A DNA stretch of 64,000 nucleotides from Halapricum desulfuricans (GTDB lineage Archaea > Halobacteriota > Halobacteria > Halobacteriales > Haloarculaceae), in the NCBI RefSeq assembly GCF_017094465.1, contig NZ_CP064791.1, positions 2,480,001-2,544,000 on the forward strand, in the 5' to 3' direction. Shown in pieces: positions 53,921 through 63,961 of the stretch (position 1 is the stretch's first letter; each line of letters opens with the position of its first letter). The translations under genes were made by a program, and so were the position numbers. The notes beneath the pieces are model-generated. The model made no database searches. It had not been told where the DNA came from and saw only the letters and a program-made list of their open reading frames with translations.

Positions 53921-55176
53921 GTGGAGTACCGTCGTACCGCCGTTATCAAGCTCGACACGCCCGAAGGCGCGGATAAACATCTGCGGGAGACTATCGAGCA
54001 ATTCAAATACTGTTCCAACACCGCGAGCGAGTGGTGCTGGCACGGTGACGACGGCTACCACGTCACATCCAAGGCGAAGGCCGAAGATGCGCTGTACGAC
54101 CAACTACGCGAGGACACGGAGTTGACCGCGAATCTCGTCCAGAAAGGGATTCATCAGGCCGTCGAATCCATCAAGAGCGGCGTCGAACGGCTCAAAAACG
54201 ACCAAGATACGTCCCGTCCGAAATTCACGGCGGATACCGCCGTCTACGACAAGCGAAGTGCCACGTTCCACCGCGACCACGTTTCGCTATCGACACCGGA
54301 CGGGCGAATCGAGTGCGATTATATTCTCCCTGAAAATCCCAAGACACCGCCGACGAAGTACGTCGCCAACGAGGACTACGAGTTTCGGCGGGCAACACTA
54401 CATCGGCGCGACGGTGACTGGTATCTCCATGCGTCGATGCTCAAAGAGGACGACGACACCGAACCCACCACCGGGCACAGAACAGTCCTCGGTGTGGACC
54501 TCGGTGTGAACCAACTCGCAGTCGCTTCGACCGGACGGTTCTGGTCGGCAGACGAGTTCACCCACTGAAGCAAGAGTACGAACAGCGGCGGGGCGACCTC
54601 CAGCAGTGTGGAACACGGGCGGCACACGACGCGATAGCAGGTGTCGAGCGCAAGGAGGACGGACGCTTCGAGATATTCCTGCATCGTGTCGCCAACGAAA
54701 TCGTTGCTGAGGCCGTCGAACACGACTGTTCGCATATCGTATTCGAGGACCTGACCGACATTCGTGAGAACGTCCCACAGGCGTCGTGGCACCATCTGTG
54801 GGCGTTCCGCCGCCTCTACGAGTACGTCGAATATAAAGCCAGAGAGCAGGGCATCGAGGCCGTCCAGGTGGACCCACGGAACACCTCGAAGCGGTGTTCG
54901 ACCTGTGGGTTTACCCACGATGATAACCGCGACGGTGAGGACTTCGAGTGTCTGGATTGCGGCTACCAGAACCACGCCGACTACAACGCGGCGAAAAACA
55001 TCGGCCTTCAGTATCTCCGGCGTCCCCAGAAATCTTCGATTTCTGGTGTGCGAACGAGACGCTCCGCGTCTCGTCAACGTCGGCAAAACGCAGACGACGG
55101 AGGCGCACCTGTAGACGTGCGCTTGAATAGCGAGGGATCGGAGATCCCTCGGACCATGCGAACGGCGAAGCCGTGA
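53921..55176 (+). pseudogene. tnpB: RNA-guided nuclease/transposase-associated TnpB, frameshifted
   Basis: N-terminal part (GTG 53921) reads EYRRTAVIKLDTPEGADKHL and runs to the RuvC-I motif [14 protein letters not shown], then stops at 54566-54568 (TGA). From 54568 the next frame continues [37 protein letters not shown] (RuvC-II glutamate), the zinc ribbon CSTCG...CLDCG and [18 protein letters not shown] (RuvC-III aspartate). Restoring one G (CACTGAAG to CACTGGAAG) rejoins the frames, so a single-base deletion disabled it. The C-terminus is further altered by two hairpin insertions (55024-55083 and 55130-55180). Confidence 0.85.
55024..55083 (+). repeat. 60-nt hairpin insertion inside tnpB
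   Basis: CCAGAAATC-TTC-GATTTCTGG (55026-55046), linker containing TGCGAAC, then ACGAGACG-CTCCG-CGTCTCGT (55054-55074). Removing 60 nt would join YLRR to [16 protein letters not shown], the usual TnpB ending, in frame. Confidence 0.6.
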
Positions 55177-55317: not shown

Positions 55318-55524
55318 TTACTCCTCTTCGAGCAATCCCAGATCGTCGGCGACCAGGTCGGCGATTCGATCGGCAATCTCGGGATCGACCTGTGCGATCT
55401 GCTCGCCGTCGTGGCGGTTCTCGTTGTGCCGCTCCAGCGTGTCGGCCAGGCTCTCCAAGGGGACGCGCGTTTCCGTCCCGCACGCCTCACAGATGATCGG
55501 CACTGTCGGGTCCTCATCAGCCAT
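55318..55524 (-). CDS. Small zinc-ribbon-like protein
   Basis: 68 residues. One CEACGTET knuckle near 12-19 with H33 and H38 further on (ERHNENRHDGEQ), which could complete a zinc site. The rest is an acidic helix (DPEIADRIADLVADDLGLLEEE). Function unknown; similar one-knuckle proteins are frequent in haloarchaea. The tnpB element ends about 4 bp past its stop codon, so the element inserted just downstream of this gene. Confidence 0.75.
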   Translation of the reverse strand: MADEDPTVPIICEACGTETRVPLESLADTLERHNENRHDGEQIAQVDPEIADRIADLVADDLGLLEEE

Positions 55525-55932: not shown

Positions 55933-57519
55933 CTACGCTTCCTTCTGGTCGGCACCGGCGACGGCGCGGTCTTTCAGCGTCGGCAGCGCCTCTTTCATCT
56001 GCTCGATCTCCTTCTCGGAGAGGCGGACGCCCGATTCGATCGTCGTGTCGACCGACTCGCCCGATTCGACGTGGGTCGCCGACGCCTCCAGCGTGCCGTC
56101 CGATTGCACCTCGAAGTCGATTTCCAGCGTCGGCTCGCCGGCGGGTGCTTTCGGGATGCCTGAGAGCACCATCTCGCCGAGTTTGGTGTTCTCCTCGGCC
56201 GCCTCGGCCTGTCCCTGATAGATCGGGAACCGGACGCCGGTCTGATCGTCCATGACGGTTGTAAAGCGGTCGTCGCTCTGGCTGATCGGGACCTTCTCGT
56301 CCTGGTCGACGACCGGCGCGAAGTCGCCGTCGTGGAGTTCGATCCCGATCGGCTGGGGCGTGACGTCCACGAGCAGCAGGTCCTCCTCGCCCGGCAGCAC
56401 GTCGTCGGCAGTCGTGTCCCCGCTCGTGGACATCAACTCGGCCTGGGTTGCGGCACCGAGCGCGACCGCCTCGTCGGGGTTGACAGAGCGCAGCGGCTCC
56501 ATCCCGAAGTAGGATTCGACCGTCTGCTGGACCTGTGTCATCCGGGTCGCACCGCCGATCAACAGCACCTCGTCGACCTCCTCGATGTCCTTCTCCGAAC
56601 GGTCGAACAGCTCGTCGACCGAGTCGATAGTCTGATCGAGCAGGTCCGCGGTCAACTCCTGGAACGTCTCGCGAGTGAGCGTCGTCTCCAGGTTGTACTC
56701 GGGACCGAGATACGGGATCGTGATCTCGGTCTGCTCGCGACTGGACAGATCGTGTTTCGCCCGCACCGCGGCGTCGTAGAGCCGTTGTTCCTGTTCTGGA
56801 TCGCCCGCGACCTCAAGGTCGCCCTCCTCGCGTGCGATATCTGCGAGGTGGTCGACGATCCGCTGGGTCCAGTCCTCGCCGCCGAGCTGGCGGTCGCCGT
56901 CGGTGTTTTTGACCTCGATGTGGTTGTGTTCGAGATCGATTTCGACCAGCGTCGCGTCGAAGGTTCCCCCGCCGAGATCGTAGACGAACACGTGCCGGCG
57001 CTCGTGGGTCTCCTCCTCGTCGGCGTCGCCTGTCTCCTGGAGTCCGTAGGCCAGACAGGCCGCCGTCGGCTCGGTCATGACGTGTTCGACGTCGATCCCC
57101 GCGATCTCGCCGGCGCTGCGGGTGGCCTGCCGTTCCGCGTCGCCGAAATAGGCCGGCACAGTGATGACCGCCGAGTCGACGTCACGACCCAGGTATGCCT
57201 CGCCGTCGGCCAGCAGCCGCGAGAGGATCAGCGCCGAGATCTGTTCGGGCCGATACGCCTCGCCGTCAATCTCGACGGCGTAGTCCTCCTCGCCCATGTG
57301 ACGCTTGATGCGCTGTATCGTCCGCCCGGCCTTGCTGACGGCCTGGTTGGCCGCCGACTGCCCCACGACCGTCTCGTCGTTCTCGTCGATCATGACGACA
57401 GACGGCGTCGTTCGTTCCCCGTCGCTGTTCGGAATGATCTCAGGTTCGTCCCCCGTGACCGCCGCGATGGCGCTGTTGGTCGTTCCGAGGTCGATCCCCA
57501 CTGCGTACCCGTCTACCAT
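55933..57519 (-). CDS. Hsp70-family ATPase, short DnaK paralogue
   Basis: 528 residues against about 620-640 for DnaK. The nucleotide-binding domain is complete: AVGIDLGTTNSAIAAV, VITVPAYFGDAERQATRSAG, VFVYDLGGGTFDATLVEID and VLLIGGATRMTQVQ. The substrate-binding beta domain is present (LLLVDVTPQPIGIELHDGDF, VPISQSDDRFTTVMDDQTGV), but the helical lid is cut to a short helix (SEKEIEQMKEALPTLKD). It is divergent from a membrane J-like gene with about 100 bp between starts, which suggests a dedicated chaperone pair. Not the main DnaK. Confidence 0.93.
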   Translation of the reverse strand: MVDGYAVGIDLGTTNSAIAAVTGDEPEIIPNSDGERTTPSVVMIDENDETVVGQSAANQAVSKAGRTIQRIKRHMGEEDYAVEIDGEAYRPEQISALILSRLLADGEAYLGRDVDSAVITVPAYFGDAERQATRSAGEIAGIDVEHVMTEPTAACLAYGLQETGDADEEETHERRHVFVYDLGGGTFDATLVEIDLEHNHIEVKNTDGDRQLGGEDWTQRIVDHLADIAREEGDLEVAGDPEQEQRLYDAAVRAKHDLSSREQTEITIPYLGPEYNLETTLTRETFQELTADLLDQTIDSVDELFDRSEKDIEEVDEVLLIGGATRMTQVQQTVESYFGMEPLRSVNPDEAVALGAATQAELMSTSGDTTADDVLPGEEDLLLVDVTPQPIGIELHDGDFAPVVDQDEKVPISQSDDRFTTVMDDQTGVRFPIYQGQAEAAEENTKLGEMVLSGIPKAPAGEPTLEIDFEVQSDGTLEASATHVESGESVDTTIESGVRLSEKEIEQMKEALPTLKDRAVAGADQKEA

Positions 57520-57619
57520 ACCCCTATGTGCTCGGTCATCTCCTAAATGGTTTTTTGTTGTGTCCGTCCGACACGAGATCCTTATACGACGCCGGTGTTA
57601 CACGTCCGATACGGCAGGC

Positions 57620-59212
57620 ATGCCAGAGCCCGACCCGGACGCCATCGATTACTACGCGCGGATCGGCGTGTCGCCCGAGGCCGACCGCGAGGCGATCGAG
57701 CGCCGGCGCAAGCAGGCCGATCGGCGCTTCTCTCCGATGGGGTCCAGCCCCGACGCCGACGAGAAACGCCACATGCGGATCAACGAGGCCAGTAACGTCC
57801 TCGAAGACGCCGACAGACGGCGCCGCTACGACAGTCTCTACGAGTCGCTCGGCCCGATCAACGGGACGCTGGCGTTCGAGACGCTCTCGACGGACGTGAT
57901 CGACGCCGTCCGGGACAGCGAGCGTCTGTCCGCGCATCTCCGCGGGTTCATCGAGGTTCTCGGGCCGGAAGCCGGCTCCCGCCAGTTCGCCCGCTATTAC
58001 GACCGTCTGGAGACGCCCGTCCCGGACGCGATCGACTCCACGGCGTTACCGAACGGCTATTCGGTCGCGGACACCGGATTCGGCATCGCTGCCTGGAGCT
58101 GGCAGCAGGCCGGCCGACCCTGCTCGTTCTCGCTGTGGGTGACCGGCGGCCAGCAACTCTGGCGCACGGCAGTTCTGGAGCCCGAATCGGTCGATCGGCT
58201 GGTTGGCGACCTTCGGGCGAGCGGTCCGGCAGCCGTCCCTGATCCGGCCGGCGACGCGTCGTCCGACCCGTCCCTGGATCACAGTGACGGCGTGTCGAGC
58301 GACGGCACGCCGACGACACAGATCAGTCTCGGCCATCCGAGCTCGGCCGTCGTCGACCGGCTCGAAGACGACGACTCGCTCCCGTCGATGGCCGAGACCT
58401 CCTCGTGGGTATCGACGCCGGTCGACCGACTTCGCCGCGTCGTCTCGTACGTCGTCGCGACGGGCGGCTGGGCCGTTGGCACTGCTGTCGGCTCGATCGG
58501 CAGCGGGGTCGTCGGCTCGCTCCTGGCGGCAGTCGCGTTCCTGCCGCTGTTGGCCGTCACGCTCGTGGTCCAGTCGTCGCTGCCCGAGCTATCGATCACC
58601 GGACTCCCGCTTGTCGACCCCGCCAGCCCAGTCACGTCTCTCGGGCTCTTCCACTACCTGGTCGCCGGTGTGGCCGCGACCACCGCCGCGTGGATCACGG
58701 GACGACTGCTCGTGCGGATCCACCGTCACAGAGCGGCGTCGCTCCCGCGTGACGCCTGGCTCGTGTTCGGCTCGGCGCTGCTGGCGCTCGCGGGCGCGCT
58801 GTTCCTCGGTATCGGCCAGTCCGAACTGTCACAGTGGCCGGGGCTGGCCCTCACTGCCGTGCTGGCGGCGTTCACCTTCCAGGCGTCGATGGACGTCGGC
58901 GCACCGCGGTCGCTGGCGCGTCTGTGTCGAACCGTCGCGACGCTCTCGTTCGCGCTGGCCGGCGCAGTCGCCGCTCTCGCCGTTCTCGCTCTCGTCGCCG
59001 CGAACGTGTCGTCGTCGGCCTTCGAGGCCGTCGCCACGGTCGTCGTGACTGTCCCGGTCGTCGATTCGACGCTGTTCAGCCCGGCAAACGCCGAACTGGT
59101 CGTCGTCGGGTTCGCCGCGCTGGCTATCGTTCCGCTCGCGCTGACGACGCTGTACAGCCTGGCCTACGCGCTCGAATCAGCCGCGCTTCGCATCCGCTCG
59201 TACGTGTCCTGA
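57620..59212 (+). CDS. Membrane J-domain-like protein without HPD motif
   Basis: 530 residues. Residues about 7-75 follow the J-domain plan: DAIDYYARIGVSPEADREAI, MRINEASNVLEDADRRRRYD. In the loop where DnaJ has HPD, this protein has FSPMGSSPDADEKR, so stimulation of Hsp70 by the usual contact is doubtful. A soluble middle of about 200 residues follows, then about six hydrophobic segments in 290-525 (for example VGSLLAAVAFLPLLAVTLVV). TATA CTTATAC at 57581-57587 sits about 36 bp before ATG 57620. It is divergent from the Hsp70 gene and presumably works with it at the membrane. Confidence 0.83.
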   Translation: MPEPDPDAIDYYARIGVSPEADREAIERRRKQADRRFSPMGSSPDADEKRHMRINEASNVLEDADRRRRYDSLYESLGPINGTLAFETLSTDVIDAVRDSERLSAHLRGFIEVLGPEAGSRQFARYYDRLETPVPDAIDSTALPNGYSVADTGFGIAAWSWQQAGRPCSFSLWVTGGQQLWRTAVLEPESVDRLVGDLRASGPAAVPDPAGDASSDPSLDHSDGVSSDGTPTTQISLGHPSSAVVDRLEDDDSLPSMAETSSWVSTPVDRLRRVVSYVVATGGWAVGTAVGSIGSGVVGSLLAAVAFLPLLAVTLVVQSSLPELSITGLPLVDPASPVTSLGLFHYLVAGVAATTAAWITGRLLVRIHRHRAASLPRDAWLVFGSALLALAGALFLGIGQSELSQWPGLALTAVLAAFTFQASMDVGAPRSLARLCRTVATLSFALAGAVAALAVLALVAANVSSSAFEAVATVVVTVPVVDSTLFSPANAELVVVGFAALAIVPLALTTLYSLAYALESAALRIRSYVS

Positions 59213-60770: not shown

Positions 60771-61991
60771 ATGGCGACGGCCCAACAGGGTAGGCGTCCC
60801 ACGGAACGGCTACACCAGGACTCGAAGTACGATTTCCTCTCGCTGGCAGTCGACCGCGAGCCGGGCGACGTGATCTCGGAGTTCTCGACGGAGATCAACG
60901 CTGCGCTGGATCGTGCCGTCGAAGACGATCTCGATGTCGCATGGCTTCAGGGGCAGAGCTGCACCGGCTGTACGATCTCGCTGCTCCAGGGGGAGTACCC
61001 GGAACAGTTCCAGCTCGAACGGTTCCGGGAGTCGATCGCCTTCCACCCGACGCTGATGACCGACGCTGGAGACAGGGCACTCGAGGCGATCGAGACTGCT
61101 CCGGACGTGTTGATCGTCGAAGGATCGATTCCGGTAGACGTCCCGCGCGCAGCGACGCTCGGCGTCGATCGGGACGGGGCTCGTCGACCGATCCTCGACT
61201 GGGTGGTCGAACTCGCGGAACGCGCCGAGGTGGTCATCGCCGTCGGGAGCTGTGCCGCCTACGGCGGGCTGCCGGCCGCCGGGAAGCGTGATCCGGAGGC
61301 GGTTCGAGCGAGTCCGACCGGTGCGTCCGGCGTCCAGTTCGAGGGGATCGACCGGGGCGGCGTGTTGGGTCCGGAGTTCACCGCCGGCTCCGACCTTCCG
61401 GTGATCAACGTTCCCGGCTGTCCCACGCACCCGGATCACATCCTGTTGACGCTCGCGACCGTCCTGAACGGCTACATCCCGACTCTCGACGAGTTCAACC
61501 GGCCGCTGCCGCTTTTCGCCCCGCTCGTTCACGACGACTGTACCCGTCGGCCGGACTACGAGGCGAAAAACTTCGCGTCGGAGCCGGGCGAATCGGGGTG
61601 TCTCTACGAGGCCGGCTGTGCCGGCGTCCACGCCAACTGTGACGACTCCAAGCGGCTGCGAAACGGCGGGACCACCATCTGCCGGGACGTCGGCGCGCCC
61701 TGCATTGGCTGTGTCGAGCCGGCCTTCTGGGACCGGTTCACCCCGTTCTACGAGACCCGCGAGACGAGAGAGGAGATCGGCGAGCCCGAACCGATCGAGG
61801 AATCGAGTCGCGCGATACCGAGGCCGGAGAGCCGTCTCGCCGGGTTGCTGATCGCGATTCCGGTGTGTGTCCTGCTTTTGCCCCTGCTTCCCGTCGTTGG
61901 GGCGTTGTGGCTCGTCGGTCGCTGGTTCGGCCCGGACGGACCGATCGCCTGGCGCGACGATCCACGAAACCGAACGGTCGGTGATCGCTGA
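60771..61991 (+). CDS. [NiFe] hydrogenase small subunit
   Basis: 406 residues. The proximal cluster ligands are C64 and C67 (CTGC), C161 (GSCAAYGG) and C217 (PGCPTHP). Distal and medial ligands come from H254, C257 (HDDCTRRPDYE), C277, C283, C290, C304, C311 and C314 (CIGCVEPAFWD). This pattern fits group 1-like electron-transferring subunits. One C-terminal membrane helix (about 356-383, LAGLLIAIPVCVLLLPLLPV) anchors it. No twin-arginine signal is present although GRR occurs at 7-9, so an inner-face location is possible. Its stop overlaps the large-subunit start. Confidence 0.93.
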   Translation: MATAQQGRRPTERLHQDSKYDFLSLAVDREPGDVISEFSTEINAALDRAVEDDLDVAWLQGQSCTGCTISLLQGEYPEQFQLERFRESIAFHPTLMTDAGDRALEAIETAPDVLIVEGSIPVDVPRAATLGVDRDGARRPILDWVVELAERAEVVIAVGSCAAYGGLPAAGKRDPEAVRASPTGASGVQFEGIDRGGVLGPEFTAGSDLPVINVPGCPTHPDHILLTLATVLNGYIPTLDEFNRPLPLFAPLVHDDCTRRPDYEAKNFASEPGESGCLYEAGCAGVHANCDDSKRLRNGGTTICRDVGAPCIGCVEPAFWDRFTPFYETRETREEIGEPEPIEESSRAIPRPESRLAGLLIAIPVCVLLLPLLPVVGALWLVGRWFGPDGPIAWRDDPRNRTVGDR

Positions 61992-63517
61992 TGCCGGAGA
62001 TCGAGATCAACCCGACGACGCGAATCGAAGGCCACCACAGCACGACGATCGACGTGCGGGACGGACAGATCGCGTCGGCCAAAAGCCACATGGAGATGTT
62101 CCGGGGCATCGAGAACATCACCGTCGGACGACCCCCCTCGGACGTCCCACAGATCACGCAGATGGTCTGTGGAGTCTGTTTCACTTCCCACCGGAAGGCG
62201 GCGACACTTGCGCTCGAGGACGCGGCCGCTCGCGCTGGCGTCTTCGGCGGTGTACCGTACAACGCTCGCCTCCTCCAGAACGTCATGGAGGGGATGTTCC
62301 TGCTCTGGAACCACGCGATCCACCTGTTCACGCTGGCCGGACCGGACTACAGCGACGCCGTCGCGGACACTGGCTACGCGCGACTGAACCCGAACGAGGG
62401 AGCGGGGTACGAGAGCGCGCTGTCCAACCAACGGACGCTGTTACAGGCGTTCACCGAGTTCGGCGGCCGCGCACCCCATCCGCTGACGTACGCGCCGGGG
62501 GGCGTCGTCGCCCAGCCCGACGAAGAGACGATGGATCGGGTCCGCGAGCGCATCGCGTCGGTCGACGAGTGGGTTGGGCCGACCGACGCGGTCCCGGAGG
62601 TGCTGGCTGCGGTCCGCGACCGGCGCGGGCCACCGAGTGACGCTCGCGGGCTGTACGACATGGTGAGCGTCCTCGTCGCGGCCGCGGAGGAAGGCGCCGA
62701 CGAGTTCGGTGTCGGTCCCGGACGCTTCTACGCCAACGGGATGTTCTACGACGACAGCGGCGGCCTCGTGTTCCCCGGCGGTGTCTTCGTCGACGGCTCG
62801 GTACGCGACCCGAGTCGGACGGAGTTGCTCGCGAGTATCACGGAAGACACGAGTCACGCCTGGTACACCGAGGAATCCGGTGGCCACCCCCAACGTGCGC
62901 CGCCGCCCGAGCCGGCACCGGACAAGGAAGGCGCGTACTCTTGGGGAAAGGCCCCTCGGTTCGACGGCCAGGCAGTCGAGACCGGGCCGCTCGCCCGGCT
63001 GATCGCCGCCGGCGACGACCCGTTCGATCTCCGATCGGAACTCGGCGGCGATCCCCAGCGGAGCAGCACGCTGAACCGTCTCATCGCCCGCGTGCAAGAG
63101 TTCCTGCTCGTCAGGGACATGCTCGGAGAGTGGATCGAGTCGGTGGACATCCACGGGCCACTGCGAGCCGAGTGGACCGACGACTTCACCGCCGAGGGCG
63201 TCGGTCTCTGGGGCGCTTCGCGGGGCGCGCTCTCGCACTGGGTGCGGGTCGAAAACGGCGAGATCGCCAACTACCAGATCATCTCACCGACGCTGTGGAA
63301 TCTCGGCCCCCGGGACAAAGCGGGTAACCCGAGCATCCTGGAGTACGCACTCGAAGGGATGGCAGTCGAGGATCCCCGCGACCCGGTGAACGTGATGCGG
63401 ACGATCCGGTCGTACGACCCCTGTCTCGGCTGTGCCGTCCACGTCCAGGACGGCGAGGAAACGCGGTTCGTCGGGGATCTGGAGCCACCGCGCCCCACGG
63501 ATTCGCTCGGCGACTAG
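61991..63517 (+). CDS. [NiFe] hydrogenase large subunit
   Basis: 508 residues. Active-site motifs: RIEGHH near 11-16 (L1), C60 and C63 in VCGVCFTSH (L2), and C478, C481, H484 in DPCLGCAVH (L5), giving all four cysteines for the Ni-Fe(CN)2CO centre. APGGV near 171 is another family mark. A 24-residue extension follows H484 (VQDGEETRFVGDLEPP and more), which a maturation endopeptidase would remove. No protease, Hyp genes or cytochrome b are in the window. ATG 61991 overlaps the small-subunit stop by one base. Confidence 0.95.
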   Translation: MPEIEINPTTRIEGHHSTTIDVRDGQIASAKSHMEMFRGIENITVGRPPSDVPQITQMVCGVCFTSHRKAATLALEDAAARAGVFGGVPYNARLLQNVMEGMFLLWNHAIHLFTLAGPDYSDAVADTGYARLNPNEGAGYESALSNQRTLLQAFTEFGGRAPHPLTYAPGGVVAQPDEETMDRVRERIASVDEWVGPTDAVPEVLAAVRDRRGPPSDARGLYDMVSVLVAAAEEGADEFGVGPGRFYANGMFYDDSGGLVFPGGVFVDGSVRDPSRTELLASITEDTSHAWYTEESGGHPQRAPPPEPAPDKEGAYSWGKAPRFDGQAVETGPLARLIAAGDDPFDLRSELGGDPQRSSTLNRLIARVQEFLLVRDMLGEWIESVDIHGPLRAEWTDDFTAEGVGLWGASRGALSHWVRVENGEIANYQIISPTLWNLGPRDKAGNPSILEYALEGMAVEDPRDPVNVMRTIRSYDPCLGCAVHVQDGEETRFVGDLEPPRPTDSLGD

Positions 63518-63573: not shown

Positions 63574-63961
63574 TGGCTGCGGGGAGTAAGCCCCCTTCTG
63601 TTCGGCCCGGCATTCGGCTGAGCGTCCGCGCCGCGTCCGGGCTACCTTGTGGCGCGGACTTGCACCGGTGAGGATTCGCCGTTCCATCCGTTCTCTGCTG
63701 TCGGCCTTCGGCGGGTCAACTCCCCGTTCCTTTCTCGGCAGGTCACCCTGCCGGGCTTTCGTCCGGCAGTCGACCCGACCTTCGTCAGTCGGGGTTCGCA
63801 CGCCTCATTAGTCGAGCAGAGCGGTCTCGTTTCTGTTCCAGTGCCAGCGGTCTCCCGCTCCGGGTTTGCACCCGGTCACCTGCCCGGTCGGTGGGGGGAC
63901 TTTCCTCATGCCCGTTCTGCGGAACGCAGTCTCGGGCACGGGAACCGGGCTCCCGCTGCCA
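63574..63961 (-). ncRNA. rnpB: RNase P RNA (archaeal type A)
   Basis: On the minus strand the P1 stem pairs TGGCAGCGGGAG (63961-63950) with CTCCCCGCAGCCA (63586-63574), allowing one bulge and one mismatch. The universal 5' core GAGGAAAGTCCCCCCAC lies at 63907-63891, and the 3' partner AGAAGGGGGCTTACTCCCC at 63599-63581 forms P4. The internal GGTGCAAGTCCGCGCC fits the specificity domain. Length about 388 nt suits haloarchaea. It processes the 5' ends of tRNA. A TTAAT near 63984-63988 is about 25 bp before the start and could be its TATA. Confidence 0.95.

Follow-up and report, generated by a model that had tools for sequence, protein, structure and literature searches.

The 64,000-nucleotide stretch of Halapricum desulfuricans DNA analyzed here (assembly GCF_017094465.1, contig NZ_CP064791.1, positions 2,480,001 to 2,544,000; hereafter the window) carries two chaperone genes transcribed in opposite directions, one for a short Hsp70 of 528 amino acids (aa) (55933..57519, minus strand) and one for a membrane J-like protein of 530 aa (57620..59212, plus strand; identified as an open reading frame [ORF] and by Pfam). 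The 100 bp between the two facing start codons (57520..57619) form a putative shared divergent promoter region, in which a candidate promoter element, TTATA, was noted by eye at 57582-57586, directed toward the J gene. A sigma-70 promoter scan gave no match, a result that is not meaningful for archaea. The divergent arrangement and the 100-bp intergenic region agree with a preliminary description of this DNA. The two genes were adjacent and divergent in all five near-complete Halapricum genomes, so their pairing is not due to chance. The preliminary description had proposed conservation across the haloarchaea as a check; instead, this form of the pair was confined to Halapricum. Of 392 genomes of the order, 5 had the full-length J-like protein, all of them Halapricum, which rules out a haloarchaeal core pair. 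Identity of the short Hsp70 in the other four Halapricum genomes was 91 to 95%. Halapricum sp. CBA1109 has a partial J-like protein at a contig end, and the incomplete sixth Halapricum genome (G392) has a fragment of the short Hsp70, also at a contig end.

The short Hsp70 matched PF00012 above the cut-off, with 475 bits (E value, 2.9e-142) over profile positions 1 to 514 of 599. Past the equivalent of position 500 of Escherichia coli DnaK it has 36 residues, versus 138 in the 638-aa DnaK, and it therefore lacks the helical lid, as the preliminary description had held for most of that part. In alignment with DnaK, the ATP-site residues checked (K70, E171, T199, and D201) were kept, as was the interdomain linker (LLLVDVTP, resembling VLLLDVTP), and 4 residues were missing from the GrpE-signature loop region. 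Scores fell below the DnaK equivalog cut-offs of NCBIfam (510.5 versus 648 for PRK00290 and 490.3 versus 822.55 for TIGR02350).

The J-domain of the neighboring protein spans residues 10 to 71 (57647..57832, plus strand; PF00226 and phmmer). With PF00226 it scored 28.6 bits, barely over the cut-off of 27.8, and in a phmmer comparison with solved J-domains the best E value was 7.8e-9 (4j7z); judged from its sequence, the protein is clearly homologous to J-domains. The His-Pro-Asp (HPD) motif is replaced by S-P-M (residues 38 to 40; 57731..57739, plus strand), that is, H33 by S and D35 by M with P34 kept, in a loop that reads F-S-P-M-G-S-S-P-D. HMMER can alternatively align this loop with a gap at D35, and under neither alignment is there an acid at position 35. 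S-P-M was identical in all five Halapricum orthologs. Type IV (pseudo) J-domain proteins are defined, in PMC13254874, by non-conservative replacement of HPD in a recognizable J-domain, and by that definition the J-like protein is of type IV. Hydropathy (Kyte-Doolittle) placed a membrane part at about residues 288 to 518 (58481..59173, plus strand) with four main hydrophobic stretches, some of which could accommodate more than a single helix, giving some 4 to 6 helices. Loss of the HPD site had already been claimed in the preliminary description and was confirmed, although the letters given there for the loop (FSP-GSSPD) were inexact; its membrane part likewise stood, and its number of about six helices is plausible only. 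Structure prediction with AlphaFold2 for the J-domain alone (2 sequences) placed helices at 11-15, 19-36, 44-61, and 64-76 in a J-domain-like manner but at low confidence (predicted local distance difference test [pLDDT], 64.8; predicted template modeling score, 0.27), and for the full-length protein (3 sequences) pLDDT was 35.5. The sole Foldseek match of the low-confidence J-domain model was a J-domain, at a nonsignificant E value of 9.6.

In two papers, Asp35 of HPD is described as pointing at DnaK Arg167, and DnaK R167H is given as a reported suppressor of DnaJ D35N (Suh et al. 1998, as quoted in PMC5519331 and PMC7289447). The model set out in the latter is that Asp35 draws Arg167 off aspartates of the linker and substrate domain, by which ATP hydrolysis is promoted; once Arg167 is changed, the J partner is reported no longer to stimulate effectively (PMC7289447). 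In all five Halapricum short Hsp70s, Arg167 was replaced by His and Asn170 by Thr (reference, E. coli DnaK from NC_000913), and D393 of the linker and D481 were kept. In the window, the codons for H167 to A175 lie at 57059..57084 (minus strand), beginning, as read on that strand, with the His codon CAC. Both sides of the trigger are thus changed in 5 of 5 Halapricum genomes, with His at position 167 of the Hsp70 and no acid at position 35 of the J-like protein. Arg167 and Asn170 were kept in all 16 canonical haloarchaeal DnaKs aligned. The H. desulfuricans genome itself encodes two Hsp70s, of which the canonical DnaK has Arg167 and the one beside the J-like gene does not, and it has six J-domain matches, five with HPD and only that of the pair without it. 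The loss of the HPD-contacting Arg167, together with that of Asn170, is indirect evidence for the altered control of the ATPase that the preliminary description had proposed. Searches of the open-access literature, to which most subscription papers do not belong, turned up no natural Hsp70-J pair that had lost HPD and Arg167 in a matched way, which does not prove that none exists.

Within the J-like protein, constraint is strongest in the SPM loop with helices II and III. Among the five Halapricum orthologs, 30 of 36 positions were invariant in the segment from helix II through the loop to helix III, whereas the soluble middle had 55 invariant positions out of 123 and the membrane part 103 out of 254. 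The ratio of nonsynonymous to synonymous differences (pN/pS) was 0.126 for residues 25 to 60, near the 0.115 of the short Hsp70, and 0.453 and 0.490 for the soluble middle and membrane parts, respectively. Because the constraint is greatest where the motif is missing, loss of HPD is not decay. The replacement is fixed and under purifying selection genus-wide, and the neighboring Hsp70 bears the change that genetics predicts as compensation.

We then set the pair against other haloarchaeal second Hsp70s. A total of 373 of 393 genomes were examined for these, 366 with PF00012 and 7 with the Hsp70 protein alone; the remaining 20 (19 less complete genomes and G391) were covered by the protein query only. 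No short second Hsp70 was found in a 320-genome subset scanned with PF00012, and genomes G366 and G002 gave no match at all. G099 had two canonical-type Hsp70 pieces with Arg167 on separate contigs, and the Hsp70 fragments of G013 and G127 were also of canonical type. Loci were read in 48 regions, drawn from 37 genomes, that surround second Hsp70s (the fetched regions being shorter at contig ends, as for L180, L188, and others) and in genomes G168, G367, and G368. An adjacent J gene with Pro-Asp was present in 22 of the 48 regions, 3 had a degenerate J (L168, L175, and L176), and 23 had none scored as adjacent. Where the linked J gene had Pro-Asp, Arg167 was kept in 25 of 25 loci (G168, G367, G368, and 22 further loci, including the HPD variants NPD, LPD, and QPD in L164, L165, and L167). 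Where it did not, Arg167 was lost in 8 of 8: the five Halapricum loci; L168 of genome G339, with K and Q at position 167 of its two Hsp70s and KPE in the J loop; and L175 and L176, with Glu at 167, weak J-domains with loops read as SDD (by eye) and DGD, and loss of the linker. In the 23 regions with no J gene scored as adjacent, residue 167 was Arg in 14 and another residue in 9, and the D-V-x-P linker was absent from all 9 of the latter Hsp70s. These 23 regions include L166, where an Hsp70 with Arg167 has a weak "SPD" J beside it, and L177, with an HPD J at a distance of 3.7 kb. Short Hsp70s with J proteins are a sporadic and diverse haloarchaeal module that mostly keeps HPD and Arg167.

The Hsp70 tree left out 13 rows (fragments, fusions of ~1100 aa, very divergent sequences, and L033, a copy of L074). 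The Halapricum short Hsp70s were monophyletic (100/100) and sister (93/91) to a group of G168/G367 and G339 (100/99). Their nearest relatives, G168/G367, keep both Arg167 and HPD, and G339 (K/Q, KPE) groups with these, apart from Halapricum; forcing Halapricum and G339 together was rejected (p-AU [approximately unbiased test], 0.028). On a tree made without columns 167 to 170, the 34 J-linked rows required a minimum of two changes of the Arg167 state, a minimum that one loss and one regain would fit as well.

Several observations weigh against reading these data as coupled change of the two sides. The locus counts (25/25 and 8/8) are inflated by relatedness, and independent contrasts came to two pairs, both concordant, for which a sign test (p, 0.5) has no power. 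The J gene of L168 lies 2.9 kb from the nearer Hsp70. L175 and L176 nominally keep Asp35 while residue 167 is Glu, so that the clean rule is one of Pro plus Asp, phrased after the data had been seen. Moreover, since Arg167 was lost in 9 of 23 regions without a J gene scored as adjacent, its loss need not answer a J partner. Fisher values of 7e-8 (by locus) and 0.0045 (9 versus 3 lineages defined by hand) were not relied on, being pseudo-replicated or post hoc. With the lineages few, the covariation draws its weight from agreement with prior genetics, from the constraint, and from the contrast within the genome.

The reading that we favor, with confidence about evenly poised, is that Halapricum has a dedicated membrane Hsp70 system, that the R167-D35 trigger was replaced on its two sides jointly, and that the J-like protein docks rather than triggers through HPD. 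We infer physical contact, ATPase behavior, insulation, and membrane clients along the following lines. With His at 167, the arginine lock would be gone and the lever for HPD weakened or absent, so HPD may be dispensable. Helix II of the J-domain would dock at the nucleotide-binding domain and linker, for which the basic residues R28, R30, and K31, with helix III, could still serve. Docking would recruit the lidless Hsp70 and position it on clients at the membrane, and the Hsp70 would be insulated from the five HPD-bearing J proteins of the cell. More tentatively, and as something we think possible without expecting it, the pair may be an orthogonal one, the Arg167-Asp35 lock having been given up on both sides more than once (His/SPM in Halapricum and K/Q/KPE in G339) by the route of the laboratory suppressor, with insulation from the DnaJ network; on this view His167 could even render the lock responsive to pH or ions. 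The small natural pair makes the question directly testable, relatives with both ancestral residues exist, and, if true, the arrangement would serve as a blueprint for insulated chaperone pairs.

The five HPD-bearing J proteins would have another part to play if one of them triggered the short Hsp70 and the J-like protein, with no action of its own on the Hsp70, paired with, restrained, or placed that J protein, in the manner of Pam16, an import-motor J protein with DKE/DKS for HPD (PMC13254874). However, the partner Hsp70 itself lacks Arg167, where changes are reported to render J stimulation ineffective (PMC7289447), and no second J gene was present in the four other Halapricum regions or the end of the 64-kb window that was scanned; we consider such an arrangement unlikely. 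Slightly less probable still is that the changes are coincidental in a relaxed contact, the Hsp70 having become independent of J proteins and the J-like fold being kept for another partner or for self-assembly. Loss of Arg167 from nine Hsp70s with no J gene scored beside them fits such uncoupled drift, but those nine also lack the D-V-x-P linker whereas Halapricum keeps LLLVDVTP, the face formed by helix II, the loop, and helix III is the most constrained in the J-like protein, and the two genes are adjacent in all five Halapricum genomes.

A nearly usual trigger would persist if an aspartate of SSPDAD had taken the place of Asp35 and contacted His167. SPDAD is identical in all five orthologs, and the HMMER alignment in which D35 alone is missing would accommodate such a shift. 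Yet 4j7z (DnaJ 2), an ordinary J-domain whose HPD is intact, has a similar SPEAEEK after that motif, so that SPDAD is no special replacement, and we regard a shifted acid as quite improbable.

Among known systems, E. coli HscC with DjlB/DjlC is the closest in plan: HscC (556 aa) is likewise a shorter, divergent Hsp70 near J proteins that have a hydrophobic C-terminal stretch and an altered HPD (HPE), and Halapricum follows that plan in pairing a short Hsp70 with a neighboring membrane J protein whose HPD is changed. HscC also lacks the same residues in the GrpE-signature loop region (PMC8215388). Unlike the Halapricum Hsp70, however, HscC has Arg167 and some of the lid region, and DjlB/DjlC keep the His and an acid, whereas Halapricum lost both His and Asp of HPD. 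By phylogeny the Halapricum protein is not of the HscC type, since HscC stood apart on a branch of 2.52 and Halapricum grouped with G168/G367/G339. The DnaK R167H/DnaJ D35N combination, as quoted in PMC5519331 and PMC7289447, has the same residue at the same Hsp70 position and a change at the same J position. Those are laboratory alleles of a general system, however, whereas the Halapricum changes are natural and fixed in the genus and concern an Hsp70 that has no lid and a J protein of the membrane; in addition, D35 is M or absent rather than N, and H33 is also lost. The type IV J proteins Pam16 and DNAJB13 resemble the J-like protein in having a recognizable J-domain with non-conservative HPD replacement, but no dedicated Hsp70 with a matching change is reported for them in the accessible part of PMC13254874, whereas the Halapricum partner is adjacent and changed. 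The haloarchaeal modules (G168, G367, G368, and 22 loci) share a lidless Hsp70 beside a J protein, mostly with hydrophobic stretches; they differ in keeping Arg167 and Pro-Asp and in that the two genes share a strand in 24 of 25 cases, in contrast to the divergent genes of Halapricum.

Further features were noted in the surveyed loci. In L168 (G339:C6, 2827-12490), a single cluster holds the two short, divergent Hsp70s with Q and K at 167, the KPE membrane J gene, HEAT-repeat-like ORFs (judged by eye), and one ORF that matched HerA weakly in the PADLOC scan. The short Hsp70s of L163, L170, L171, L172, L180, L187, and L188 form a clade (100/100) without Arg167 and without a VLLLDVTP-type linker; no J protein was detected near them within the fetched regions, which reached about 8 kb at most and were shorter at contig ends, and they are possibly J-independent Hsp70s. 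The J proteins of L164, L165, L167, and L079 have Ig-like or carboxypeptidase-regulatory-like repeats after the J-domain (by Pfam for L079 and by eye for the others). L147, L158, L159, L161, and L181 have Hsp70-like ORFs of 1089 to 1236 aa, apparently with long extra C-terminal parts, and in L175, L176, L177, L178, and L193 another Hsp70-like ORF, very divergent and 617 to 751 aa long, comes after the short Hsp70.

Neither the short Hsp70 nor the J-like protein matched any anti-phage defense family among the PADLOC profiles (0 families), and a role of the pair in such defense was set aside. A plasmid search returned one Nostoc record, with a 39% match limited to the J-domain. Downstream of the Hsp70 gene, a 68-aa zinc-finger-like ORF (CEACGTETR; 55318..55524, minus strand) was conserved in 5 of 5 Halapricum loci; its copy in L033 had a weak Pfam treble-clef match, below the cut-off, and it may be a third member of the module or an unrelated gene. 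Transposon OrfB/TnpB-like ORFs in two pieces, the first recognized by a weak Pfam match below the cut-off and the second by eye, lie at 53921-55176 (plus strand), between the Hsp70 gene and a gene that we take to be nadC-like. On the other side of the pair, genes for the small and large subunits of a NiFe-hydrogenase occupy 60771-63517 (plus strand), locus L033 of H. hydrolyticum also has them next to the pair, and an archaeal RNase P RNA (RF00373, 168 bits) was found at 63575-63960 (minus strand).

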